A stretch of DNA of 64,000 bases, from assembly GCA_015232395.1 (NCBI GenBank), contig JADFZT010000021.1:1-64000 (forward strand). The letters are read 5' to 3'. A program made the translations under genes and the position numbers. The notes below the pieces were generated by a model. That model was not told the DNA's origin. It did no database searches and worked only from the letters and a program-made list of their open reading frames with translations. This document shows, piece by piece, positions 13,459-29,096 of the stretch. The DNA is from Magnetococcales bacterium (GTDB taxonomy: Bacteria > Pseudomonadota > Magnetococcia > Magnetococcales > JADFZT01). Position 1 is the first letter of the stretch, and the number at the start of each line of letters is the position of its first letter.

Positions 13459-15222
13459 TCAACCCCCAGCCAGCCCACAAAACGAAAGTCCCGTCCCTTG
13501 GGCAAGCTCCAGGGTCAGGGAAGCAAGATCCTCCACAGCCAGATCTGCCACCCGCCGTTTGCCACAGATCCGGACATAATCTTCCACTTCATGGCTATAG
13601 ACCTGAAACAGGGAGGTGAGCATGGCCGCTGATTTTTCCACGTCGAAGCGGCTACGCAGATCGGGATTTTGAGTGGCGATTCCCACCGGACAGCTGCCCC
13701 GGTGACAGATGCGATATTGCTGGCAGCCGATGCCGATCAGAGCGGCGGTGGCAAGCCCCACGGCGTCGGCTCCCATGGCCAGGCATTTGGCAATATCGGC
13801 AGAGGTGCGCACGCCACCTGCCACCAGCAGGGAAACTTCCTCTCTTTTGCCTGAGCGATCCAAAAACTGGCGCGTCCGGGCGAGGGCATAGGGGAGGGGG
13901 ATGCAGACGTTATCCTTGATGTGATCCGGTGCCGCTCCGGTGGAGCCCCCCCGGGCATCCAGGGTGATAAAATCCACCCCCGCAGCCAGAGCCACTTCCA
14001 GATCTCTTTCGATCCAGCCGGTGGATATTTTGACCCCTACCGGCGTGCCTTCCCCCTTCTCTTTGAGCCAGGCCACCTTTTGTGCCAGCTCCCGGGGAGT
14101 GGTGATATCCTCATGACGGGCGGGGGAGATGATATCCTGGCCCGGCTTCACCCCACGGGCAGCAACGATTTCGTCGGTCACCTTGGCGGCCAGGAGGTGC
14201 CCACCCAGCCCCGCTTTGGCGGCTTGGCCGATTTTGATCTGAATGGCGTGGGATTTTTTCAGATTTTCATCGGTGACCCCAAAGCGGCCTGTGGAATATT
14301 CAAAGACATAAAATCGGGCCGCTTGATACTCCTCTTCCAGGAGTCCCCCCTCTCCCCCAAAAATAGCCGTACCGGTGGCAGCGGAACCCTTGGCAAGGGC
14401 TATTTTGGCTTCCTTGGAAATGGAGCCAAAGCTCATGTCGGACACATAAAAAGGTAGCCCAATGGTCAGGGGTTTTTTGGCAGCCGGGCCGATGGTGACC
14501 GACAGATCCGGGGTGGCCTCCCGATAGTCCAGGGGGCTTCTGGCCAGTTGTGCCGGCAGGAAGACGACATCCTCCAATAAATTTTGCCACCGGGAGGGGC
14601 GCATGGCCGAAACCGACTCCTCTCCCGAGAGCGCCTTGGCCAGAATGGTTCTGAACTCCGGCTCCCGCTCATCGAGTTTGCGCTCCCACTGGGAAAGATA
14701 AAACCCGGTGGATGGTGCCGGCTTGGCAGGGGTCGCCTCGACTGGTGCCGATTTGGCTTGGGTTGAAGCGGTATTCGAAAAGTTGGCCGGAGCAAAATCA
14801 GCCGGGGGAGGAACTTGGCTGAACTCTTCCTGATCGGCCCCACACACCGGACAGACCCAACCGCTGGGCAGATCATGCCATGGGGTGCCGGGGGGAATGT
14901 CGTTTTCCGGATCTCCCCGGGTGGCATCATAGAGCCATTCACACAGCCCACACTCATAGAGCGCGGCGGCTTCCTTGGGTGTGGCGTTGGCTGCAGCGGT
15001 GGGGGGGGTGAGGGATTCGGGAACTTTCAGGAACTCCTCTTTATCGGCACCGCACACCGGACAGACCCAGTCATGGGGCAGATCTTCCCACCGGGTTCCG
15101 GCTGGAATGCCGTTGTCGGGGTCTCCCAAAGCTTCATCGTAGACCCATTCACAGAGGTCGCATTCGTATTGGTTGGTGGCGTTGGCCATGTGGGCATTCC
15201 AGAGCGTTTGCCCCATCCCCAT
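13459..15222 (-). CDS. Double-rubredoxin / FMN glutamate-synthase-like fusion protein
   Basis: 587 residues. Two rubredoxin domains in tandem (about 19-65 and 88-135), each with a pair of CxxC knuckles (CDLC...CPVC and CGLC...CPVC), are joined by an Ala/Pro-rich linker (140-175) to the FMN-binding central domain of glutamate synthase (about 190-570). That domain keeps the [3Fe-4S] cysteines ([12 protein letters not shown]) but the glutaminase and large GltB domains are absent. Archaeal-type GltB-like proteins have this core; the rubredoxins probably feed it electrons. The start at 15222 has GGAG nine bases upstream; MANATN at 15189 lacks a site. 51 bp downstream of rubrerythrin in the same operon, so a redox or oxidative-stress role is likely. 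The true substrate is unknown. Confidence 0.88.
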
Positions 15223-15273: not shown

Positions 15274-15774
15274 TCAGGTGATTTTCAGATATTTTTCTTT
15301 CTTCACATTGCAGATGGGGCAGCGGTCGGGGGCCTCGCCGATTTCGGTGTGGCCACACACCGGACAGACATAAATTTCAAGGCTCTCCAGATCTTTGCCG
15401 TCCGCCACCGCTGCCAGGGCCTGCTGGAAGAGATCGTGATGGATTTTTTCCACTTCCATGGCGTTGGTCATGGAGTTGACCGCTTTTTTCTGGCCTTCTT
15501 CCTGGGCGGTTTTGACAAACTCCGGATACATGGCGCTGAATTCATGTTTTTCCCCGGCGATGGCTTCCTTGAGGTTGTCCCCCGTGCTTTGAACGCCGTC
15601 CAACGCCCGCAGGTGGGCATGGGCGTGGATGGTTTCCGCCTCGGCGACCGCGCGAAACAGCTTGGCAACCTGGCCAAAGCCTTCTTTTTCAGCTTTTTGG
15701 GCAAAGGCCAGATATTTGCGGTTGGCCTGGCTCTCGCCAGCAAAGGCATCTTGAAGGTTTTGGGTGGTTTTCAT
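15274..15774 (-). CDS. Rubrerythrin
   Basis: 166 residues. An N-terminal diiron four-helix bundle with the ligand Glu/His pattern (AGESQANRKY, EAETIHAHAH, and a later EVEKIHHDLF) is followed by a C-terminal rubredoxin-like zinc-ribbon (CPVCGH...CPICNV). Rubrerythrins reduce hydrogen peroxide to water using electrons from rubredoxin. The next gene in the operon supplies two rubredoxin domains, a sensible donor. A good GGAG-type site lies before the start. First gene of the operon. Confidence 0.94.
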   Translation of the reverse strand: MKTTQNLQDAFAGESQANRKYLAFAQKAEKEGFGQVAKLFRAVAEAETIHAHAHLRALDGVQSTGDNLKEAIAGEKHEFSAMYPEFVKTAQEEGQKKAVNSMTNAMEVEKIHHDLFQQALAAVADGKDLESLEIYVCPVCGHTEIGEAPDRCPICNVKKEKYLKIT

Positions 15775-16288: not shown

Positions 16289-17755
16289 TTGCTTTATTTA
16301 ACGCTCCTTCTGGCCATTCCTCTGTTTGGTGCGGCCACCCTCTTTTTTGTTCCCTATCAGTACCGACACCTGATTCGTCCCCTGGCAGTGGCCTTTGCCT
16401 CGGTCACCCTGGCTTTGGCGGTGGGGTTGTTGGCCCTTTATGATACCGGGGCCAGTGGCTTGCAGCTGGTGGAAAGTTTTCACTGGAATCCCCGTCTGGG
16501 CACCTACTATGCCTTGGGGCTGGACGGCTTTTCCCTGCCCATGGTGCTGTTGACCGCACTGCTCTGCCTGATCGCCATTCTGGCCTCCGGGGGGATCCGC
16601 AATCGCATCAAAGCCTATTACATGCTGATGCTGGTGCTGGAGACCGCCATCCTGGGGGTGTTTATGGCTCAGGATTGGGCGCTTTTCTATCTCTTCTGGG
16701 AGATGACCCTGATTCCGCTCTTTTTCCTGATTGATCGTTGGGGGGGGAGCGGACGCCATGGGGCGGCGATGAACTTTGTCCTCTACACCCTGGGGGGGTC
16801 GGTCTTTATCCTGATCTCCCTGCTGACCCTCTTCGATGCTTCCCCGGATGGCTCTTTCCAGATGGCTTCCATCGCCGCTGGGGCCATGGCGTTGAGCGAA
16901 CAGCAGCAGTTGTTGGTTTTTTTGGGGCTTTTGATCGGCTTTGGCGTAAAAATGCCGATCTTTCCCATCCACGGTTGGTTGCCCCTGGCCCACGTAGAGG
17001 CCCCGGCCCCGGTGAGTATTCTGCTCTCGGGTATTCTGCTTAAAATGGGCGCCTATGGGCTGATTCGGGCGGCGGAAATGTTGCCGGGGGTGGTGGTGAC
17101 TCTACAACCCTGGCTCATGGCTCTGGCCTTTGTCAGCCTGATTCACGGTGGGCTTCTCGCCTGGTGGCAGCGGGATCTCAAGCGCATGATCGCCTACTCC
17201 TCGGTGAGTCACATGGGGGTGGTGCTGTTGGGGATCGCCGCCTGCAACGTGGCGGGTCTGATGGGGGCGGTGATGCAGATGATCGCCCACGGCCTGGTGG
17301 CGGGGCTGCTGTTTCTTTTGATCGGCCTGCTCTATGAGCGCACCCGCACCCGGGATATCGATGATTACAGCTCTTTGGTGAGAGTGATGCCCCGATTTGC
17401 CTTTTTTGCCGTGTTGGCCTTTGTCGCCGCCATAGGCTTGCCGGGGACGGCGGGCTTTATTGCCGAACTCCACACCCTGATTGGCGGTTTTGAGCGTTGG
17501 GGCTGGGGAGTGGTGCCCCTGACTTTTGGCGTTTTGATCAGCGCCACCTATGCCATTCGCACCATCGGTCGTCTTTTCACCGGTCCCCTGCGTCCGGCCA
17601 TGCAAAATATCGAGGATCTCAAGAGCCATGAATTTATCGCCGCCGGAGCGCTCGCGGTCAGCATTATCTTCATCGGTCTCTTCCCAGCTCCGGTGCTCAA
17701 TCTCATCTCCGCATCGGTCAATCAGTTCGGCACCCTGTTTGCGGATCGGTTTTAA
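16289..17755 (+). CDS. NuoM-like proton-channel subunit, first gene of the DAB cluster
   Basis: 488 residues, 13-14 hydrophobic helices, close to the normal NuoM length. It keeps the key Glu in LFYLFWEMTLIPLFFL (about residue 135-140) and the Lys of the broken-helix channel (GVKMPIFPIHGWLP), so it should still move protons. The start is a TTG with AAGGA six bases upstream; no ATG gives a sensible alternative. It ends 3 bp before dabA, so coupling is tight. Complex I genes other than the antiporter-like ones are absent, which argues that it serves the DAB pump rather than respiration. Confidence 0.85.
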   Translation: MLYLTLLLAIPLFGAATLFFVPYQYRHLIRPLAVAFASVTLALAVGLLALYDTGASGLQLVESFHWNPRLGTYYALGLDGFSLPMVLLTALLCLIAILASGGIRNRIKAYYMLMLVLETAILGVFMAQDWALFYLFWEMTLIPLFFLIDRWGGSGRHGAAMNFVLYTLGGSVFILISLLTLFDASPDGSFQMASIAAGAMALSEQQQLLVFLGLLIGFGVKMPIFPIHGWLPLAHVEAPAPVSILLSGILLKMGAYGLIRAAEMLPGVVVTLQPWLMALAFVSLIHGGLLAWWQRDLKRMIAYSSVSHMGVVLLGIAACNVAGLMGAVMQMIAHGLVAGLLFLLIGLLYERTRTRDIDDYSSLVRVMPRFAFFAVLAFVAAIGLPGTAGFIAELHTLIGGFERWGWGVVPLTFGVLISATYAIRTIGRLFTGPLRPAMQNIEDLKSHEFIAAGALAVSIIFIGLFPAPVLNLISASVNQFGTLFADRF

Positions 17756-17758
17756 AAG

Positions 17759-20700
17759 ATGACCACCGAGGACGATACCCCCCAAGCTGCCCCTTTGAGC
17801 CCCCGTGAACGGGTGCAAAAGGCGATCGATCATTTTGACCATATCCTGCCCGGGCAAGCCCCGCTCAAGGATTTTGTCCACCACAACACGCTCCACGGCT
17901 ATGAGACCCAAACCTTCTATGAGGCTGTGGAGGCTGCGGAAAAAAAGACCGGTATCTACGGTTTTTTACCCAAGGAAAAATTTCGGGCGTTTTTCAATGA
18001 AGGTCGTATCACCACGGAGGATCTAAGCCGGGTATTGGATGGAGATCCCGAGCTGGAAGCCTCGGAAGAGGTGGTGAGCACGGAGCAGGGGGTACTGGCC
18101 AAACGGGATGTCTATCTGTGTGGTCTGCGGCATGATTTTGATCCGCTCACCCCCAGCCAGCTCGGCTGGCAGGTGGAGGAGATGGGCGCGCTGGAGCGGT
18201 TTCAGCCCGACCTGCCCCCGGAGGTGCGGGGGCGTCTTCTGCGGGGGGCCGGGGCAAAACCCGAAGCGGAAATTCTCTCGGAACTCTGGTCCGCCTCCCT
18301 CAATGCCCTGGGGCTCAAACACTATATTCTCCACCCCGAGGAGCTGTTGGATCTCTCCCCGGATCAGGCCCAGACCATCAACACCGCCATCACCGGTGAT
18401 GGCGATACCGGGGAAAATGAAGGGCTCAACCGCTGGATCCGCCACGAAGCGGAACGCCTGCTCAAACAGCTCTTAAGCCAAATCGGCAGCCACTACACCG
18501 TACGGGGATTGCTCAAAAGCCTGACGGGGATCGATATTCTGGAGGAGATCCGTCCCCACCTGATTCGTCAACTCTCCAGCCATCTGGATCTGGGGGTGGC
18601 CGCCTGGCACAACCCCAAGCGCAAGGAGGGGTTTTATGCCAGCTGGCGGGCCAACGCCGCTCAGGATCTTGCCTGGATGTTTGACGACATGCTGGATTGG
18701 CACGATCAGCTGACCCTCTTGCCCGATGATCCCCTGGATGCGGTGATCTCAGAGTTGCACCTGCTGGGGGTGCCTGAAGAGAGCTGGACCGACTATCTGG
18801 ACACCTTGGCCCTGGAGCTTCCCGGCTGGGCCGGGCAGTTTCAGTGGCGGGCTGGCAATCCCGGTTACAGCCATCTCGATATCAATCTGGATATGGCGGG
18901 TTTTTTGGCGGTGCGTTTGATCCTGGAGCGACTGTTTGCCCATCGCCTCTGCCGTCGCACCTTTAATGTCACCCCGGATCTGGATCTGCTGCGCTGGTAT
19001 TTTCGCAACAACCGCCACGAATTTTTGGTGCGCTACAGCCTGTTCCATTTTCGCCTGCCCGAATATGCCCTCCATCGCGCCCAACGTCTGGTCTCCATGG
19101 TGGCCTCCCGCACGCCCCCCACCTCAGAGGAGTGGCAGCAGGCGGCCCATCTGATCTGGACCTGGCGTCACAGCCCCATGGCCGACAGCAACAAGCGGGT
19201 GACGGTCTATCATCACGGCTGGCGGCTGTTTCGTCTGGTGCAGCTGTTGGGGTTGGATGCTGAAACCGTGGCGGGGCTCTCCTTGAAACAGGTGGAAACC
19301 CTCTTCGGCTGTATTGATCGCCTGACCCCCATGAAGAGCGGTTTTCTCTGGTTGCAGGCCTACGAAAACCACTACCGGGATGAAGTGTTCAATGCAGTCG
19401 TGCAAAATCATGGCCGGGGCCGCTGGAATAATCGGGAGAAACGCCCCGAAGCCCAGATTGTTTTTTGCATGGATGATCGGGAGGAGTCGATCCGGCGGCA
19501 GTTGGAGGAGCTCAATCCCCGCATCGAAACCCTGGGAGCGGCTGGATTTTTTGGTGTCGCCATCAACTGGCAGGCCCTGGACGATGAGGAGCCCACCGCC
19601 CTCTGTCCGGTGGTGGTCTCTCCTGCCCATAAGGTGACCGAAACCGTCAGTCCCGAGCATCGTCCCCTGAAAGAGCAGCATCAAAGGGGGCGTAAGCTAC
19701 GCCTGGCCCTGACTGATTTTCTCCTTAACGGCAGCCGCCACCATCTGCTCTCCACGGCTTTTGTCACCGCTCTGGCCGCCCCAGCCGCCCTGGTGGCTCT
19801 GACGAGCCGAATATTGGCTCCCGATCGAAGCAAGCAGATGATCCGCCGCCTCCTGGAAAAATGGGAGCCTAAGGTGCCTACGGGCCTGGCCCTCACTGCT
19901 GAGGAGGATGGCTCGGAAGCGACCCCCCTTCACAATCGCCTGGGATTTACCGATACCGAACAGGCTGACCGGGTGATGGGTTTTCTCAAGACCGTCGGTT
20001 TGACCAGCGGTTTTGCCCCTCTGTTCGTGGTGATGGGACACGGCTCCATCAGTGAAAACAACCCCCTGTTGGCCGCCTACGATTGTGGGGCCTGCTCCGG
20101 TCGTCACGGCGGCCCCAACGCCCGGGTTTTTGCCGCCATGGCCAATCGTCCCCGGGTGCGGGATATCCTGCGCCAGCGGGGCATCGACATTCCTGACGAT
20201 ACCTGGTTCGTCGGCGCCAAGCACAACACCTGTAACGACGGCTTCAGCTGGTACGATATTTCCCTGATGCCGGAATCTTTTACGGCTCCCCTGAAACAAC
20301 TGGAAGAGGAGCTTGTCACCGCTGCCCGTGGCTCTGCCCACGAGCGTTGTCGCCGGTTTGAGGCCATCTCCCCGGATCTCTCCCCCCAAAGTGCTGCCGG
20401 GCATGTGCGGGACCGGGGACACGATATCAGCCAGGCCCGGCCCGAGTTCAATCACGCCACCAACGCCGTGGCCTTTATTGGCCGCCGCGCCATCAGCCAG
20501 GGGGCCTTTTTTGATCGGCGGGTGTTTCTCATCTCCTACGATCCCACCATCGATGCCGATGGCAAGATTGTCGAAAACATTCTGCTCAACGCGGGGCCTG
20601 TGGGAGCGGGAATCAACCTGGAATATTATTTTTCCACCGTGAGCCCGGATGAGCACGGCTGTAGCTCCAAAATCACCCACAATGTGGCGGGGCATTTTGG

Positions 20701-21058
20701 CATCATGGATGGCAGTGAATCCGATCTGCGTACCGGTTTGCCCATCCAGACCACGGAAATCCACGAACCCATGCGCCTACAGGTGTTGGTGGAGGCCACC
20801 ATGGACATTCTCACCGAGATCTATATGCGTCAACCTCCCCTTCAGGAGCTGGTGGGTAACGGCTGGCTGCTGCTTTCAGCCAAGGATCCCCAAACCGACG
20901 CCATCCACCTGTTCGACCCCAAAAAAGGTTGGGTTCCCTGGCAGGAGTTGCCTCGTCCATTGCCCACTGTGGAACGCTCCAAAGATTGGTACCAGACCAG
21001 TCGAACCTTCCTCTCCCCCGTTTTGATCCGGCAACCCGAGGAGATGGGCCATGGTTGA
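17759..21058 (+). CDS. dabA: DabA (DUF2309), inorganic-carbon pump zinc subunit
   Basis: 1099 residues. DabA is a cytoplasmic, beta-carbonic-anhydrase-like zinc protein that, with DabB, couples membrane ion flow to one-way hydration of CO2 to bicarbonate. Predicted zinc and catalytic residues are all present: Cys570 and Asp572 in FCMDDRE, His761 in MGHGS and Cys776 in YDCGACSGRHGG. The His-to-Cys distance (15) equals that of the studied Halothiobacillus protein (known-family comparison from memory). Length is typical of the long DabA group, well above the ~830-residue form. It starts just after the NuoM-like stop and overlaps dabB by 8 bp. Confidence 0.95.
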   Translation: MTTEDDTPQAAPLSPRERVQKAIDHFDHILPGQAPLKDFVHHNTLHGYETQTFYEAVEAAEKKTGIYGFLPKEKFRAFFNEGRITTEDLSRVLDGDPELEASEEVVSTEQGVLAKRDVYLCGLRHDFDPLTPSQLGWQVEEMGALERFQPDLPPEVRGRLLRGAGAKPEAEILSELWSASLNALGLKHYILHPEELLDLSPDQAQTINTAITGDGDTGENEGLNRWIRHEAERLLKQLLSQIGSHYTVRGLLKSLTGIDILEEIRPHLIRQLSSHLDLGVAAWHNPKRKEGFYASWRANAAQDLAWMFDDMLDWHDQLTLLPDDPLDAVISELHLLGVPEESWTDYLDTLALELPGWAGQFQWRAGNPGYSHLDINLDMAGFLAVRLILERLFAHRLCRRTFNVTPDLDLLRWYFRNNRHEFLVRYSLFHFRLPEYALHRAQRLVSMVASRTPPTSEEWQQAAHLIWTWRHSPMADSNKRVTVYHHGWRLFRLVQLLGLDAETVAGLSLKQVETLFGCIDRLTPMKSGFLWLQAYENHYRDEVFNAVVQNHGRGRWNNREKRPEAQIVFCMDDREESIRRQLEELNPRIETLGAAGFFGVAINWQALDDEEPTALCPVVVSPAHKVTETVSPEHRPLKEQHQRGRKLRLALTDFLLNGSRHHLLSTAFVTALAAPAALVALTSRILAPDRSKQMIRRLLEKWEPKVPTGLALTAEEDGSEATPLHNRLGFTDTEQADRVMGFLKTVGLTSGFAPLFVVMGHGSISENNPLLAAYDCGACSGRHGGPNARVFAAMANRPRVRDILRQRGIDIPDDTWFVGAKHNTCNDGFSWYDISLMPESFTAPLKQLEEELVTAARGSAHERCRRFEAISPDLSPQSAAGHVRDRGHDISQARPEFNHATNAVAFIGRRAISQGAFFDRRVFLISYDPTIDADGKIVENILLNAGPVGAGINLEYYFSTVSPDEHGCSSKITHNVAGHFGIMDGSESDLRTGLPIQTTEIHEPMRLQVLVEATMDILTEIYMRQPPLQELVGNGWLLLSAKDPQTDAIHLFDPKKGWVPWQELPRPLPTVERSKDWYQTSRTFLSPVLIRQPEEMGHG

Positions 21059-22616
21059 TCCCAGAGTCATTGCAGTGGTTCCCTTGTTGCCGTGGGTGGC
21101 TGCCGTTTCCATCGGTGTGGGCCAGATCTTGCGCAGACCCCGGGGGATGGATGTGCCTTCGGAGCGTCCCACCCTGCAAGTCAGCCTGGCGGCCAACGGC
21201 ATCTCCCTGTTGATCATGCTCCTGGTGGCTGTTGAGGCGCTGTTTGCCGGTGCTCCGGGGGGGGTGCGGCTGGGAGAGTGGTTTGGCAGTGGCGGCTATG
21301 GTGTCGATGTCAGCTTTACACTGGATACCCTGGGGCTCGCCATGGGCCTCATGGTCACCTTTGTCCTTTTTCTCACGGTGCGTTTTTCCATGAACTATAT
21401 GCACCGGGAGAGCGGTTTTCAGCGCTATTTTTTGGTACTGAATCTTTTCGCCGGGGCGATGTCCTTGTTGGTGCTGGCGGGCAATGGGGTGCTTACCTTC
21501 GTCGGGTGGGAGCTGGCAGGGGTCAGCTCATATCTGCTGATCGGCTATATGGTGGAGCGGGAGATTGCGACCCGAAATGCCAACCAGGCCTTGATCACCA
21601 ATCGCTTTGGGGATGCGGCCTTTTTGCTGGCTATTTTTCTGACCTTCAACTACTTCGGGTCGAGCGAGTGGGCCATCTTCAGCAGTGCGGCTCTTTCACC
21701 CACCACCCCTGGGATCAACCTCATCGCCATGGCCTTTCTCATCGCGGCTCTGGCCAAATCAGCCCAGATTCCCTTCTCTCCCTGGATCGCCAGAGCCTTG
21801 GATGGACCGACGCCATCGAGCGCGGTTTTCTATGGCTCCCTGATGGTCCATGCCGGGGTCTATCTGACCATCCGCCTGGAGCCTCTGCTCCAGAACACCC
21901 CGGGGGTGATGATGGTGATCTCGGTGCTGGGGCTGTTGACCGCCCTGTATGGTTGGGTCTGCGGATTGGTGGTGAGCGATGTGAAAAGCTCCCTGATGTT
22001 TTCCACGACGGCTCAGGTGGGGTTGATGTTTTTTTGGTGTGGCCAGGGGCTCTTTGATTTGGCTGCCTGGCATCTGGCCCTCCATGCCTTCTGGCGGGCC
22101 TGGCAGTTTTTCCATGCCCCGGCGTTGATTTTTATGGTGAGTCGTCCCGCCAAACCCGCTCCGGAATGGATCATCAATCAGAGCTGGCTGCACACGGCGG
22201 CCCTGCAACGTTTTTGGTTGGAGCAGATCGGACATATCCTGATCTCACGCCCCACAGCCAGACTGGCCGCAGATGTGGACGCCTTCGAAAAAAATACCGT
22301 CAACCCCACCATGGGCATGCCCGGACAGGTGAACGCCATCTCCTCGGTGGTGCAGTGGGAAGAGCGCAAAACCGCCCAGGGAAATCTGACCGAAGATGGC
22401 GTGAGTCACGGGAAGGGGATCTTCAGCCAGATGATCCACCTCTTGGCCATGCTGCTAAAAAGATTCGAGGAAAAAATCGTCCTCCGAGGGGGGGGGGAGG
22501 GGCTCACCCATACCTTGCGTCGCATCGGTGATCGACTGATTCGTATTGACCAACTGTTGAGCGAGCCCCGTTATCTGCTGCTCCTCATCGCCATCACCTT
22601 CGTGATTATCCTCTAG
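21051..22616 (+). CDS. dabB: DabB, NuoL-like membrane subunit of the inorganic-carbon pump
   Basis: 521 residues with about 13-14 membrane helices. The NuoL-type core is clear: the Glu of VGWELAGVSSYLLIGY (about residue 155), the Lys in AKSAQIPFSPW and the PTPSSAVFYGSLMVHAGVY stretch. It forms the proton (or sodium) path that drives DabA. It begins 8 bp inside dabA with GAGGAG upstream. A hydrophilic stretch (about 370-485) separates the last helix from the rest, a feature of DabB-like NuoL proteins. Function as partner of DabA follows from established work on DAB systems; here it is inferred from gene order. Confidence 0.9.
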   Translation: MVDPRVIAVVPLLPWVAAVSIGVGQILRRPRGMDVPSERPTLQVSLAANGISLLIMLLVAVEALFAGAPGGVRLGEWFGSGGYGVDVSFTLDTLGLAMGLMVTFVLFLTVRFSMNYMHRESGFQRYFLVLNLFAGAMSLLVLAGNGVLTFVGWELAGVSSYLLIGYMVEREIATRNANQALITNRFGDAAFLLAIFLTFNYFGSSEWAIFSSAALSPTTPGINLIAMAFLIAALAKSAQIPFSPWIARALDGPTPSSAVFYGSLMVHAGVYLTIRLEPLLQNTPGVMMVISVLGLLTALYGWVCGLVVSDVKSSLMFSTTAQVGLMFFWCGQGLFDLAAWHLALHAFWRAWQFFHAPALIFMVSRPAKPAPEWIINQSWLHTAALQRFWLEQIGHILISRPTARLAADVDAFEKNTVNPTMGMPGQVNAISSVVQWEERKTAQGNLTEDGVSHGKGIFSQMIHLLAMLLKRFEEKIVLRGGGEGLTHTLRRIGDRLIRIDQLLSEPRYLLLLIAITFVIIL

Positions 22617-22626
22617 GAGTCGGACC

Positions 22627-24141
22627 ATGCATTATTCTGAAATACATTGGTCGGCCCAAGGGGGAATCCCGATACTGGCCCTGCTGCAGTTTTTGCCCCT
22701 GCTCCTCGCGGCTTGGATGGCCTACCGCCAGAATAAAGGCGGGGTGATGGGGGTGGGTGTGGTGGGCTCCTTCGGCCTTTTTTTGGGTAGCCTCTGGCTT
22801 TATGCCCACTTTGATCAACAGAGTGGGGCGATGCAGTTTGCCGAGCGGGTGCAAATCCTCGGGGCCTTTCAATATCATGCCGCTGTGGATGGGGTGTCGG
22901 TACTCTTTACCATGCTGACGGCCTTTCTTACCTGGCTGATCGTGCTCTATGGCCGGGTGCGCCCGTTGGAGCCCAACTGGCTGTTCCTGATGCTGGTCTT
23001 TGTGGTGGAATCGGCCGTCATCAGCCAGTTTGTCACCCTGGATCTTTTGTGGTTTGCCCTGATATCCACCCTGCAGATGGGGGTGTTGGGATATGTGCTC
23101 TGGGTTTGGGCCACCTCTGCGGGCAGTGGTGGGGCGATTGGTCGCTATCTGCAATTCATGGGGGTGGGGGCGGTGCTGTTTTTCGCCGGAGTGGTGATCC
23201 TGGGATGGAACCACTATACCGCGAGCCACGGTCGCTGGAGCTTTGACCTGATTGATCTGGCGGCCACACCGATTCAGCCGGGCTATCAGTCGGTCATTTT
23301 TTTCCTGCTTTTCTATGGTCTTGCCGTTCGCATTCCCCTCTTTCCCTTTCATGGCTGGCTGCCAGCTGTCGCTGAACACGGCATGGTCGCGGTGGCACCG
23401 ACCTTTTTGCTGGGGCTTAAGACGGGGGTTTTCGGGCTTTTGCGGTTTGTCTTTCCCTTGTTGAGCGAGGCGGTTTGGCAGTGGCACGGGTATATCGTCG
23501 CCTTTGCGGTGGCCGGGGTCTTCTATGCGGCGATTTTGGCACTGCGCCAGGATAACCTCCGACGCTTGCTGGCTTTCGCGGTGGTGAGCCATACGGGGAT
23601 TTTGATCATCGGTCTGTTCAGTCTGGGCCATGCCGCCTTTGAAGGGGGGGTGCTGCTGTCGGTCAACTTTGGTCTGGCCACGGCGGGACTGCTCTTTATG
23701 AGCGGCATCATCCACAGCCGCACCGGCACCATGTTGCTCCCCCAGCTGGGGGGGTTGTTTGATCATTTTCCCCTGGTAGGCACCGCCTTTTTGGTGGCTG
23801 GGCTCTCCATCATCGGCATGCCGGGCACTCCGGGTTTTGATGCGGTCCATCTGGCGTTGGAAGCCGCTATCAATCGCTTTGGTGCGGTGGTGACGGTGAC
23901 GACAGCTCTGGGTAACGTGATGGCGGCGGGTTTCCTGCTCTTCGCTTTTCAGCGTGCGTTTCTTGCTCAAAACCGCAAGGGGAGTCAGCTGGAGCTGCCA
24001 CCGGTACTGTTTTTGGAGCGATTTTTGGCGGTGGTGATCATCGGTGTATTGATCTATACCGGATTTTATACCGAGCCCTGGCTGGAGTTGATCGAACGCT
24101 CCCTGGAAGGGGTGAGTTCCCTCTATGGCCACCACGCTTGA
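22627..24141 (+). CDS. NuoM/NuoN-like membrane subunit with altered channel residues
   Basis: 504 residues, about 14 helices. Overall antiporter-like fold is evident (RIPLFPFHGWLP, LGLKTGVFGLLRF), but two channel positions differ from the other copies: the conserved Glu of the FWE motif is replaced (LLWFALISTLQ) and the Lys before PLFPFHGW is Arg. It may therefore be structural or carry another ion. It follows dabB by 10 bp and is preceded by a GGAG-type site, so it belongs to the same transcript. Confidence 0.8.
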   Translation: MHYSEIHWSAQGGIPILALLQFLPLLLAAWMAYRQNKGGVMGVGVVGSFGLFLGSLWLYAHFDQQSGAMQFAERVQILGAFQYHAAVDGVSVLFTMLTAFLTWLIVLYGRVRPLEPNWLFLMLVFVVESAVISQFVTLDLLWFALISTLQMGVLGYVLWVWATSAGSGGAIGRYLQFMGVGAVLFFAGVVILGWNHYTASHGRWSFDLIDLAATPIQPGYQSVIFFLLFYGLAVRIPLFPFHGWLPAVAEHGMVAVAPTFLLGLKTGVFGLLRFVFPLLSEAVWQWHGYIVAFAVAGVFYAAILALRQDNLRRLLAFAVVSHTGILIIGLFSLGHAAFEGGVLLSVNFGLATAGLLFMSGIIHSRTGTMLLPQLGGLFDHFPLVGTAFLVAGLSIIGMPGTPGFDAVHLALEAAINRFGAVVTVTTALGNVMAAGFLLFAFQRAFLAQNRKGSQLELPPVLFLERFLAVVIIGVLIYTGFYTEPWLELIERSLEGVSSLYGHHA

Positions 24142-24248
24142 CGCTTGCCTTAAGCGTGAGGGCGGGGCAGAGGTGTGGTTGGTGGATGTGATCGGTGGAT
24201 CGGGATGGTTGGTGTGGATCGGGATAAAATGGAAAGGTTGAGACTAAC

Positions 24249-25748
24249 GTGGTGAACAATCCGCCCCTTTTGAGTGCGCTACTGTTGATTCCTCCCTTGG
24301 GAGCGCTCCTGATCTGGCTGGTCCGGGATCCTGCCAAGGCCCGCATGGTGGCCCTTTTTACCGGTATCTTGAACCTGGCCATCGCTTTGCGGGTTTTGGT
24401 GCTGTTCGATGGGTCGATCAGTGGCTTCCAATTTGTCGAGCGCACCTCCTGGATTCCCACCCTGCATGTGGACTATCACCTGGGGGTGGATGGCATCTCG
24501 ATCCTCTTTTTGCCCCTGGCAGCACTGCTCTTCGTGGGGGTGATTTTGGCTTCCTGGACCCGGGTCAGGAACATGCCCCGGCTCTTTTTCACCCTGCTGC
24601 TGTTTTTGGAGAGCCTGACCCTCGGGGTGTTTTGCGCCATCGATGTGATTCTTTTCTATCTCTTTTGGGAATTGACCCTCATTCCCATCTATTTTCTCAT
24701 CAGCCTCTGGGGAATCGGCCCCTATCGCCGCCATGCGGCCACCAAATATATTCTTTTCATGCTGGTGGGGGGGGTGCCCCTGCTGGTGGCTTTCGTCTAT
24801 CTGGCCATCCATCAGGCTGAGGCCGCCAGTGGTGTGGCCCAAGGGTTGACCTTCAGTTATCCGGCGCTTTTTGCCAACCCCATTGCCTCAGAGCTTCAGA
24901 CCGCGCTGTTTTTTTTGCTGCTGTTGGGTTTTGCTGCCAAAACCCCACTCTTTCCCCTGCACACCTGGCTGCCTACCCTCACCATGGAAGGACACACTTC
25001 CCTGGCCACCCTGATGGTAGGGCTCAAAATCGGTGCTTACGGGCTGATGCGCTATCTTCTGCCCCTGGCTCCGGATGCCGCCCGTGAGTATCACTGGCTC
25101 TTGGCGGGACTGGGCATCATCGGGCTTTTGTATGGGGCGTTGGCGGCACTCGCCCAGACCAATATACGGCGCATGCTGGCCTACGGCTCCATGAGCCATG
25201 TGGGATTGGTGGTGCTGGGGCTGGCCTCGCTGGATCAGGCTGGGGTTCAGGGGGCGCTTTTTCAACTGCTCAACTTTACCGTGGTGGCGGGGGGACTGTT
25301 TTTGCTCACCGGCTTTTTGCGCCATCGTACCGGCTCTACCGATCTTTTAAGCCTGGGGGGTGGAGTCAAGACCATGCCGCTGTTGGTGGCCTTCTTTTTT
25401 TGGATGGGGATTGCCAGCCTGGGCGTGCCCGGGACCAGTGGTTTTCCGGCTGAATTTTTGATTTTGGTGAGCGCCCTGGGCAGTCACACCGGTGCGGGCT
25501 TGGCAGCGCTTGCCGCCATGGTCCTGGGGGCTGCCTATTTTCTCAGCTTTTTCCAGAAAAGTTTTCTGGGGCCGGTCAAGTCAAGCCTGGTGGCCCAAGC
25601 GGTGGACCTGCGCCCGAGGGAGCTGGTTGTAGCTGTAACCTTGGGGGGGGTGATTTTGCTTTTCGGACTCTTCCCAAGCCTGGTATTGGATCTCACCCGG
25701 GAATCCACCGCCCTTTGGGTCTCCCATATCGGAGCGGTCACCCCCTGA
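24249..25748 (+). CDS. NuoM-like proton-channel subunit, last gene of the DAB cluster
   Basis: 499 residues, about 14 helices. The Glu of FYLFWELTLIP and the Lys of AKTPLFPLHTWLP are both kept, so an active channel is likely. The start is one of two consecutive GTG codons (24249 or 24252) with GGAAAGG upstream. A 107-bp gap separates it from the previous gene and holds a small 7-bp inverted repeat (24133-24139 with 24152-24158) overlapping the previous stop, perhaps an attenuator. The last antiporter-like gene before the PEGA/FGE protein. Confidence 0.82.
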   Translation: MVNNPPLLSALLLIPPLGALLIWLVRDPAKARMVALFTGILNLAIALRVLVLFDGSISGFQFVERTSWIPTLHVDYHLGVDGISILFLPLAALLFVGVILASWTRVRNMPRLFFTLLLFLESLTLGVFCAIDVILFYLFWELTLIPIYFLISLWGIGPYRRHAATKYILFMLVGGVPLLVAFVYLAIHQAEAASGVAQGLTFSYPALFANPIASELQTALFFLLLLGFAAKTPLFPLHTWLPTLTMEGHTSLATLMVGLKIGAYGLMRYLLPLAPDAAREYHWLLAGLGIIGLLYGALAALAQTNIRRMLAYGSMSHVGLVVLGLASLDQAGVQGALFQLLNFTVVAGGLFLLTGFLRHRTGSTDLLSLGGGVKTMPLLVAFFFWMGIASLGVPGTSGFPAEFLILVSALGSHTGAGLAALAAMVLGAAYFLSFFQKSFLGPVKSSLVAQAVDLRPRELVVAVTLGGVILLFGLFPSLVLDLTRESTALWVSHIGAVTP

Positions 25749-27820: not shown

Positions 27821-28066
27821 TTATTCGAAAATTTCTTCCAGGGAACGGGCATCCAGCAGGCGTCTGGCGTAGATTTTGATCTCATTCAGGCTTGCACTTT
27901 TCAGCTTTTGACTGACCCAAAAGGGAAGAGTGGGGCCAAATTTTTGTTCTAACTGAAGGGACACAATATTAACCCCTCCTTCCTGCCGCCCTTCCTGCCG
28001 CCCTTCTTCACGCCACTGTTTGGTCCACTCCTGAACGGATTCCGCCAACATGTTGTTTGGCTCCAA
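27821..28066 (-). pseudogene. Truncated copy of the C-terminus of the Rpn-type nuclease gene
   Basis: 81 residues that repeat the last third of the protein at 28113-29096: shared NNMLAESVQEWTKQWREEGR, a shorter EGRQ repeat, and the same ending (YARRLLDARSLEEIF here, YTDRLLDARSLKEVF there). The nuclease part is absent, so this is a decayed or partial duplicate. It lies immediately downstream in the same orientation, as expected for a tandem duplication followed by deletion. Confidence 0.8.
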
Positions 28067-28112
28067 TCTGAATCGACATGGCCGGGAATGTCTATCCTGA
28101 CCAGGAAACGGA

Positions 28113-29096
28113 TTATTTGAAAACCTCTTTCAGGGAACGGGCATCCAGCAGGCGGTCCGTATAGAGTGCGATTCTCTCCAGACTTGCTTCTTCCAGCTTT
28201 GAATCCACCCAGGAAGGCAGAGGTGTTCCGAATTTGCGTTTCAGAAGGCGTGTGACGAGAGAGATCCCTTCTTCCTGCCGTCCTTCCTGAACACCTTCTT
28301 GCCGCCCTTCTTGCCGCCCTTCCTGCCGCCCTTCTTCACGCCACTGTTTGGTCCATTCCTGAACGGATTCTGCCAACATGTTGTTTACCTCCTGCAGATC
28401 TGACATTTCCGGCAGTGTCTGGCCGGGGAGTCGTCGGGGGAGCAGCACTCGGGCGAGCCAGACGGTGAATGCCCGCCTGAGGCTGGTCTGTTCCGGGGAT
28501 TGCAGCCAGTCGATCAACAGTGCCAGGACTGCCCGGATATCTTCTATGCCACGACTTTTTTCCAGCCGAAAGAGTGCTGCCGCCAGATTTTTTGCACCGA
28601 TCAGCTCTCCCTCACTATAGCGGATTTCATCAATCAGGAGGTAGCGCATTTTAGGTTGGAAGGGAGCAAGTCCTTTGGGTGGGGAATGAATCAGTTCACC
28701 GATATCCTGCTTGGCCTTCCAGGCTGGCTTGCCGTTATAGAGCACCACCGGCAGCACCGGGGGGAGTTGGGTGTTTTTGATTTGACCGCTTTTGATTAAA
28801 TCCTGATAGAGAAGCGCCACATATGCGGTCATCCGCACCCCCATGAAGGGGTCTGCCGAGGATTGAAATTCCATCAGAATATAAAGATAGATCCACGCCT
28901 CCCCCCACCGGACCCGCCAGATGATATCGTCGTGGCGATTTCGCAGATCATCGGTGACATAACTGCCGCTGACCTTTTCCAGGGTGGAAAAATTGGCTTG
29001 AGCGACCCAATCTTCCTTCACAAATCCTTGGAAGAGATCCCGAATCATCTCCGGGTGGCTGAAAATCTGTTTATAACCGCTATCGTGGTTGTTCAT
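28113..29096 (-). CDS. Rpn-family (recombination-promoting) PD-(D/E)XK nuclease / transposase-like protein
   Basis: 327 residues. The N-terminal PD-(D/E)XK nuclease core is visible: HDDIIWRVRW (Asp), then YLYILMEFQS (Glu and Gln) at about residues 55-80. A helical middle follows, then a strongly repeated EGRQ segment (about 250-280, five to six tetrads), probably a charged helix, and a C-terminal DUF4351-like end. Rpn proteins are RecA-independent DNA-nicking enzymes linked to horizontal transfer and phage defence; the function here is inferred. Single gene. Confidence 0.88.
   Translation of the reverse strand: MNNHDSGYKQIFSHPEMIRDLFQGFVKEDWVAQANFSTLEKVSGSYVTDDLRNRHDDIIWRVRWGEAWIYLYILMEFQSSADPFMGVRMTAYVALLYQDLIKSGQIKNTQLPPVLPVVLYNGKPAWKAKQDIGELIHSPPKGLAPFQPKMRYLLIDEIRYSEGELIGAKNLAAALFRLEKSRGIEDIRAVLALLIDWLQSPEQTSLRRAFTVWLARVLLPRRLPGQTLPEMSDLQEVNNMLAESVQEWTKQWREEGRQEGRQEGRQEGVQEGRQEEGISLVTRLLKRKFGTPLPSWVDSKLEEASLERIALYTDRLLDARSLKEVFK

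Follow-up and report, generated by a model that had tools for sequence, protein, structure and literature searches.

The locus examined here raises the question of whether a carbonic-anhydrase-like protein of the DabA type, its NuoL-like partner DabB, and three further NuoM-like proteins encoded beside them form a single inorganic-carbon system, or whether the additional genes serve another purpose next to an ordinary two-subunit DAB. We refer to the whole 64,000-nucleotide stretch of Magnetococcales DNA that was analysed as the window. A first-pass annotation had described a five-gene run of dabA, dabB, and three NuoM-like genes, and this description stands: the five are same-strand open reading frames at the positions given below, and the Pfam and NCBIfam assignments agree with it.

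16289..17755, + strand: M1, a NuoM-like antiporter-type subunit of 488 aa (Pfam PF00361, TIGR01972)
17759..21058, + strand: DabA, a carbonic-anhydrase-like zinc subunit of 1099 aa (PF10070)
21051..22616, + strand: DabB, a NuoL-like subunit of 521 aa (PF00662 and PF00361)
22627..24141, + strand: M2, a diverged NuoM-like subunit of 504 aa (PF00361)
24249..25748, + strand: M3, a NuoM-like subunit of 499 aa (PF00361)

The spacing between consecutive genes is +3, -8, +10, and +107 bp; the tight and partly overlapping arrangement noted initially therefore holds for the first three junctions, which include an 8-bp overlap of DabA and DabB, and not for that between M2 and M3. DabA matches PF10070 across the entire profile (positions 1-747 of 747; 775.7 bits), and the four membrane proteins match PF00361 with 242, 120, 116, and 193 bits (M1, DabB, M2, and M3, respectively). 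TIGR01972 (NuoM) is the best NCBIfam model for M1 (489 bits), M2 (267 bits), and M3 (453 bits), while the best class for DabB is NuoL. Genes on both sides of the cassette are unrelated to it according to Pfam and NCBIfam (SUMF1/PEGA, rubrerythrin, and glutamate-synthase-like). The glutamate-synthase-like protein (window positions 13459-15222) carries two N-terminal rubredoxin domains and adjoins the rubrerythrin gene (15274-15774); on the other side, a Transposase_31 (Rpn/YhgA-like) gene with REEGRQEG repeats (27821-29096) lies beside an apparent partial duplicate of its 3' end.

Membership in a known respiratory or antiporter complex was considered and rejected in both cases. Hydrogenase-like, NADH, and quinone modules are absent beside the cassette, and the seven PF00361 genes of the host genome comprise the four cassette genes and those for NuoL, NuoM, and NuoN of an ordinary complex I, located on contig C2; this trio, the only one in the host, adjoins NuoD/F/G within a full complex I set. 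The Mrp small subunits B, C, E, F, and G are likewise absent around the cassette. These results agree with the initial reading of the locus as an expanded DAB and not a complex I or Mrp cluster, and the DabA of the window is the only PF10070 protein in the genome. Judging from sequence, we consider it probable that all five genes encode parts of a single inorganic-carbon system: a vectorial carbonic anhydrase that belongs to the DabA/DAC superfamily and has four antiporter-type membrane subunits.

A search of gene order around DabA, of the kind that the first-pass annotation had proposed, recovered the M1-DabA-DabB-M2-M3 set in 56 distinct loci, mostly in identical order; such recurrence shows that the genes did not come together by chance. 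The 56 loci remained after duplicates were removed from 61 in which DabA is preceded by one antiporter-type gene and followed by three, and which were drawn from a scan of genome contigs carrying DabA and from an order-level genome search. The loci belong to Pseudomonadota, Nitrospirota, Myxococcota, Acidobacteriota, and Actinomycetota; carriers include Magnetococcales, Methylomonas, Methylobacter, Methyloglobulus, Methylococcus capsulatus, Ca. Venteria, and animal symbionts, together with a Rhodocyclaceae MAG, a Nitrospirota MAG (Ca. Magnetocorallium), Polyangium isolates, and Acidobacteriota and Rubrobacteraceae MAGs. A few of the MAG loci could be binning errors; isolate genomes are the source of several Polyangium and Methylomonas loci. 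A Methylococcaceae MAG carries tandem DAB systems (L053:3169-17850), a DabA-DabB pair followed immediately by a full five-gene set.

We then evaluated how consistently the additional genes are retained with DabA. At E ≤ 0.001 an M2 profile matches all NuoM proteins and so does not separate presence from absence; M2 was therefore called by the gap between true M2 proteins (at least 608 bits) and other NuoM proteins (at most 342 bits), with the single copy in genome G044 split by a frame break into matches of 397 and 289 bits. Among 30 Magnetococcales genomes that are at least 90% complete, M2 is present in 23/23 DabA-positive and 0/7 DabA-negative genomes (Fisher p about 5e-7 if relatedness is ignored), and only 3 of 367 other Pseudomonadota genomes encode it, all three DabA-positive. 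The distance matrices of the five proteins are also congruent (pairwise r = 0.90-0.94), although each single statistic of co-occurrence or co-evolution is weakened by the kinship of the genomes. In a quick tree of antiporter-type subunits, with SH-aLRT support only, M1, M2, five-gene DabB, and canonical DabB form one clade each; M1, M2, and M3 group with NuoM, M2 branches inside the M3 lineage, and five-gene DabB groups with NuoL and not with canonical DabB.

The genes beside these loci point toward inorganic carbon. A SulP permease adjoins 26 of the 56 five-gene loci (neighboring genes, Pfam); in eight Magnetococcales loci it precedes the set by 25-313 bp on the same strand, and in seven methanotroph (Methylomonas-type) loci a β-carbonic anhydrase gene follows M3 by 86-153 bp and is itself followed by SulP. 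The flanking SulP and β-carbonic anhydrase genes support an inorganic-carbon role and, together with conserved order, co-occurrence, and congruent divergence, indicate that the extra genes belong with DabA. The host genome has no match to β- or α-carbonic anhydrase models, and RuBisCO was found in none of the 48 Magnetococcales genomes searched, host included. ATP-citrate-lyase-like genes (L189, L190) are located next to complex I in the host (G000:C2:108000-127000), in agreement with published carbon fixation by the rTCA cycle in Magnetococcales (PMC6783814); several related genomes have ATP-citrate-lyase-like and complex I genes on one contig, roughly 10-20 kb apart. As RuBisCO is absent and ATP-citrate-lyase-like genes are present, the cassette would not be part of a carboxysome-type concentrating mechanism. 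The host probably fixes CO2, and its rTCA cycle and other carboxylation reactions are the likely consumers of bicarbonate or CO2.

The catalytic subunit retains its zinc site, and it departs from DAB2 of Halothiobacillus neapolitanus, whose ligands and Asp-Arg dyad have been defined (PMC13144422), at other positions. The relevant features of the window DabA are as follows.

19466..19480, + strand: Cys570-x-Asp572-x-Arg574, zinc Cys and Asp-Arg dyad, equivalent to DabA2 C351, D353, and R355
19652..19816, + strand: finger hairpin, residues 632-686, two predicted helices; Ala at the DabA2 Glu444 position
20039..20041, + strand: His761, zinc ligand, equivalent to DabA2 H524
20084..20086, + strand: Cys776, zinc ligand, equivalent to DabA2 C539
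20453..20455, + strand: His899 at the DabA2 Leu658 position, the transition-state position of β-carbonic anhydrases

The zinc residues were initially described as intact, and indeed the C/D/R/H/C set (C570, D572, R574, H761, C776) is invariant in 68/68 five-gene DabAs. The window protein matches the DAB2 PDB entry by sequence (E = 3.7e-67); a Foldseek search with the DabA model gave no useful match, the DAB2 entry being probably newer than the fold library. The model retains the finger hairpin (helices 632-658 and 663-686; pLDDT 84.8). The Glu444 position of this finger, however, is never Glu among the five-gene DabAs (0/68, with Asp in 12/68), whereas 24 of 26 S/L-type DabAs have Glu there and the other two have Asp. 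Since substitution of Glu444 abolishes DAB2 activity (PMC13144422), its absence means that DAB2-type coupling cannot simply be transferred to the cassette. A tight tie between loss of this residue and the four-subunit arrangement was considered and is weakened by the "other E/H" DabA clade, which also lacks the finger Glu yet is accompanied by only one or two antiporter domains. All 68 five-gene DabAs further replace DabA2 S356 by Glu and L658 by His. Leu658 is reported as strictly conserved across 150 homologs, and β-carbonic anhydrases have Gln or His at the equivalent position; as L658 variants of DAB2 remain active (PMC13144422), His899 is suggestive only. An Actinomycetota contig (L078:3-4682) encodes a DabA with Asp at the finger position and, immediately downstream of it, a NuoM (TIGR01972, 611 bits).

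The channel residues had also been called intact, and this proved accurate for two of the membrane subunits. M1 has E144, K234, K265, H322, H348, and E407 (E. coli NuoM numbers) in 60/60 homologs, and M3 keeps all tested residues except H348 (E144, K234, K265, H322, and E407 in 55/55). M2 has lost two carboxylates: the TM5 Glu at the E144 position is found in 0/56 homologs and the TM12 E407 in just 2/56, while the TM7 K234 has become Arg in 54/56 and the TM8 K265 is kept in 56/56. M2 homologs instead conserve residues of their own (D405, H408, E412), and this pattern suggests that M2 is specialised and not merely decayed; ion conduction by this subunit may be absent.

DabB presents a different kind of departure, and the claim of intact residues fails here, as it does for the DabA finger. 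The window protein corresponds to the TM1-11 part of NuoL joined to a NuoL-like C-terminal segment, with NuoL TM12-15 missing; after residue 365 there is a single hydrophobic helix, compared with three or four in canonical DabB. It keeps the E144, R175, D178, and K229 ion-pair set and has H254 changed to Tyr and K342 to Arg (E. coli NuoL numbers). The first member of this set is encoded as follows.

21510..21512, + strand: DabB Glu154, the TM5 ion-pair Glu, equivalent to NuoL E144 and DabB2 Ile151

This Glu is present in 60/60 five-gene DabBs and in 0/20 canonical DabBs, the latter counted after removal of L051, L066, L075, L146, and L147, which are M1 genes of truncated five-gene loci. The loss of TM12-15 with retention of the C-terminal segment characterizes DabBs of a Proteobacteria/Nitrospirota group, while those of Acidobacteriota, Rubrobacteraceae, Polyangium, and one Gallionellaceae copy keep TM12-15 and lack K399/D400. 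In complex I, E/R/D/K ion pairs connect adjacent antiporter subunits (PMC9271201), and a DabB with this ion pair and no distal half would suit a place between the NuoM-like subunits and DabA.

A model consistent with these features can be outlined. DabA would bind zinc and convert CO2 to bicarbonate in the cytoplasm, and the membrane arm would comprise the NuoL-like DabB together with M1, M2, and M3, four subunits instead of one. Ions, probably protons, would flow inward through this arm, and their flow would be coupled to catalysis via the DabA finger hairpin. Since the exit-half helices (NuoL TM12-15) are missing from DabB and the finger Glu from DabA, the ion path would probably run sideways, entering via the intact M1 and/or M3, with M2 as a diverged linker, and reaching DabA through DabB. 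One complex I model offers a precedent, in which proton transfer to a distal residue opens the ion pair of the next antiporter subunit (PMC9271201). Physical assembly, ion identity, direction, and stoichiometry are inferred, and a CO2-hydrating complex with a complex-I-style arm that admits ions via NuoM-like subunits and couples them laterally to the carbonic anhydrase, by a mechanism unlike that of DAB2, is put forward tentatively. The suggestion that each additional gene contributes one more channel is too simple, because M2, DabB, and DabA have each lost key features (the M2 carboxylates, the DabB exit-half helices, and the DabA coupling Glu). It would also be energetically excessive: an inward flow of 3-4 protons per CO2 would be a driving force far above the need of CO2 accumulation at normal proton-motive force, and if three intact entry sites were all coupled, the attainable carbon gradient would likewise lie far beyond need. 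This excess would imply a low-force niche, opposed ion directions among the subunits, or coupling of only some of them.

One may postulate alternative scenarios in which the five genes do not act together. The cassette could combine an ordinary DabA-DabB DAB with a separate, merely co-regulated Mrp-like exchanger of M1, M2, and M3 that sets the ion gradient; the NuoM-like genes do resemble antiporter subunits, and DabA sometimes lies on a different contig from the four membrane genes. In these genomes, however, the relocated DabA leaves DabB behind with M1-M3 (an intact M1-M3-DabB-M2 quartet in G003 and G014, and M1-DabB-M2-M3 in G379). DabB is also interleaved in the gene order, its E/R/D/K residues face neighboring subunits in complex I, the cluster is devoid of Mrp small subunits, and a DabB that lacks TM12-15 would probably not make a complete channel on its own; we therefore regard two separate modules as unlikely. 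A scenario in which M1-M3 are NuoM duplicates idle in carbon uptake, carried along with a two-subunit DAB, would accommodate their homology to NuoM and the canonical residues lost in M2, but it is already largely contradicted by perfect co-occurrence and an order kept across several phyla, and by the conservation of M1 and M3 channel residues and novel M2 residues, which indicates purifying selection. We give this scenario hardly any credence.

It is also conceivable that the system runs in the opposite direction, with ions pumped outward via several channels and the pumping powered by DabA chemistry, whether CO2 hydration or bicarbonate turnover. For YbcC operons, the COGNAT study proposed an exergonic reaction with ion export, and more ions with more subunits (PMC5700660). 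A His at a catalytic position where DAB2 has Leu could be read in the same way. The free energy released by CO2 hydration, however, is too small for the export of several protons against a normal gradient. Moreover, studied relatives consume a gradient, with DAB2 uptake sensitive to uncouplers (PMC13144422), and the host is a probable CO2 fixer in which α- and β-carbonic anhydrases were not detected; outward pumping thus appears quite improbable.

If the five proteins do form one complex, it would be a carbonic anhydrase powered by a multi-subunit complex-I-like arm without redox chemistry. Antiporter-type subunits would then be separated from quinone reactions, making lateral coupling directly testable, and the NuoL-like subunit without TM12-15 would allow the model in which all protons leave through NuoL to be tested. 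The finger Glu, considered essential from DAB2, would not be general to DabA enzymes. The cassette is experimentally accessible in cultured Methylomonas, Methylococcus, and Polyangium strains, and it points to a way in which rTCA magnetotactic bacteria and methanotrophs may be supplied with carbon.

The caution about novelty expressed in the first-pass annotation was justified, and the idea of an expanded DAB was partly anticipated. In 2017 the COGNAT study described "clade C" YbcC operons with DUF2309 upstream of nuoL and with NuoM (COG1008) and SulP (COG0659) genes, and held that the number of membrane subunits sets the number of ions; its main text gives no NuoM count, gene order, residues, M2 divergence, or DabB truncation (PMC5700660). 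In the openly licensed literature we found no paper that describes the five-gene set, the residues that mark it, or the organisms in which it occurs. The new elements are the definition of the cassette, the finding that its genes are retained together, and the departures at positions regarded as essential.

Compared with DAB2 (DabA2-DabB2, cryo-EM 9rd0; PMC13144422), the cassette shares the zinc ligands and Asp-Arg dyad, a PF10070 DabA with a predicted finger hairpin, and a NuoL-like DabB, and it differs in having four antiporter-type subunits instead of one, in placing DabA upstream of DabB, and in the DabA changes (finger Glu444 absent, S356 to Glu, L658 to His). DabB2 has Ile151, an "open" state, and 15 TM helices, in contrast to the TM5 Glu and missing NuoL TM12-15 of the cassette DabB. 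The full-length PF10070 match, the zinc site with its dyad, and the adjoining NuoL-type partner thus place the cassette in the DabA/DAC superfamily, and it lies outside the DAB2-type subfamily, which is marked by finger Glu444, Leu658, and a 15-TM DabB free of the TM5 Glu. MpsAB of Staphylococcus aureus likewise pairs a DabA-type with a NuoL-type protein and supplies dissolved inorganic carbon, but it has two subunits; PMC13144422 cites the argument that it uses sodium. Other arrangements occur as well: in Planctomycetota NIOZ-UU7 (L079:8515-20670) one run comprises SulP, DabA, MrpE, MrpF, MrpG, MbhD/E, MnhB, a NuoK/MrpC-type gene, MrpD, NuoL, and NuoM, such that DabA heads a whole Mrp/complex-I-type membrane module, and in a Myxococcota locus (L074:11619-14693) and a deltaproteobacterial MAG (L087:13020-16040) DabA is followed by a single protein of ~1,000 aa that carries two antiporter domains and thus represents fused subunits. 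The membrane arm of complex I (NuoL/M/N) similarly has adjoining NuoL-like and NuoM-like subunits with conserved ion pairs and central lysines, whereas the cassette is without quinone and NADH modules and without NuoN, has a truncated NuoL-like subunit, and contains two intact and one diverged NuoM-like subunit. Cyanobacterial NDH-1MS is driven by ferredoxin oxidation, and its hydration subunits are unrelated to PF10070. It nevertheless provides a comparison in terms of how the cassette may work, as there too a complex-I-type arm is tied to CO2 hydration (PMC13144422).
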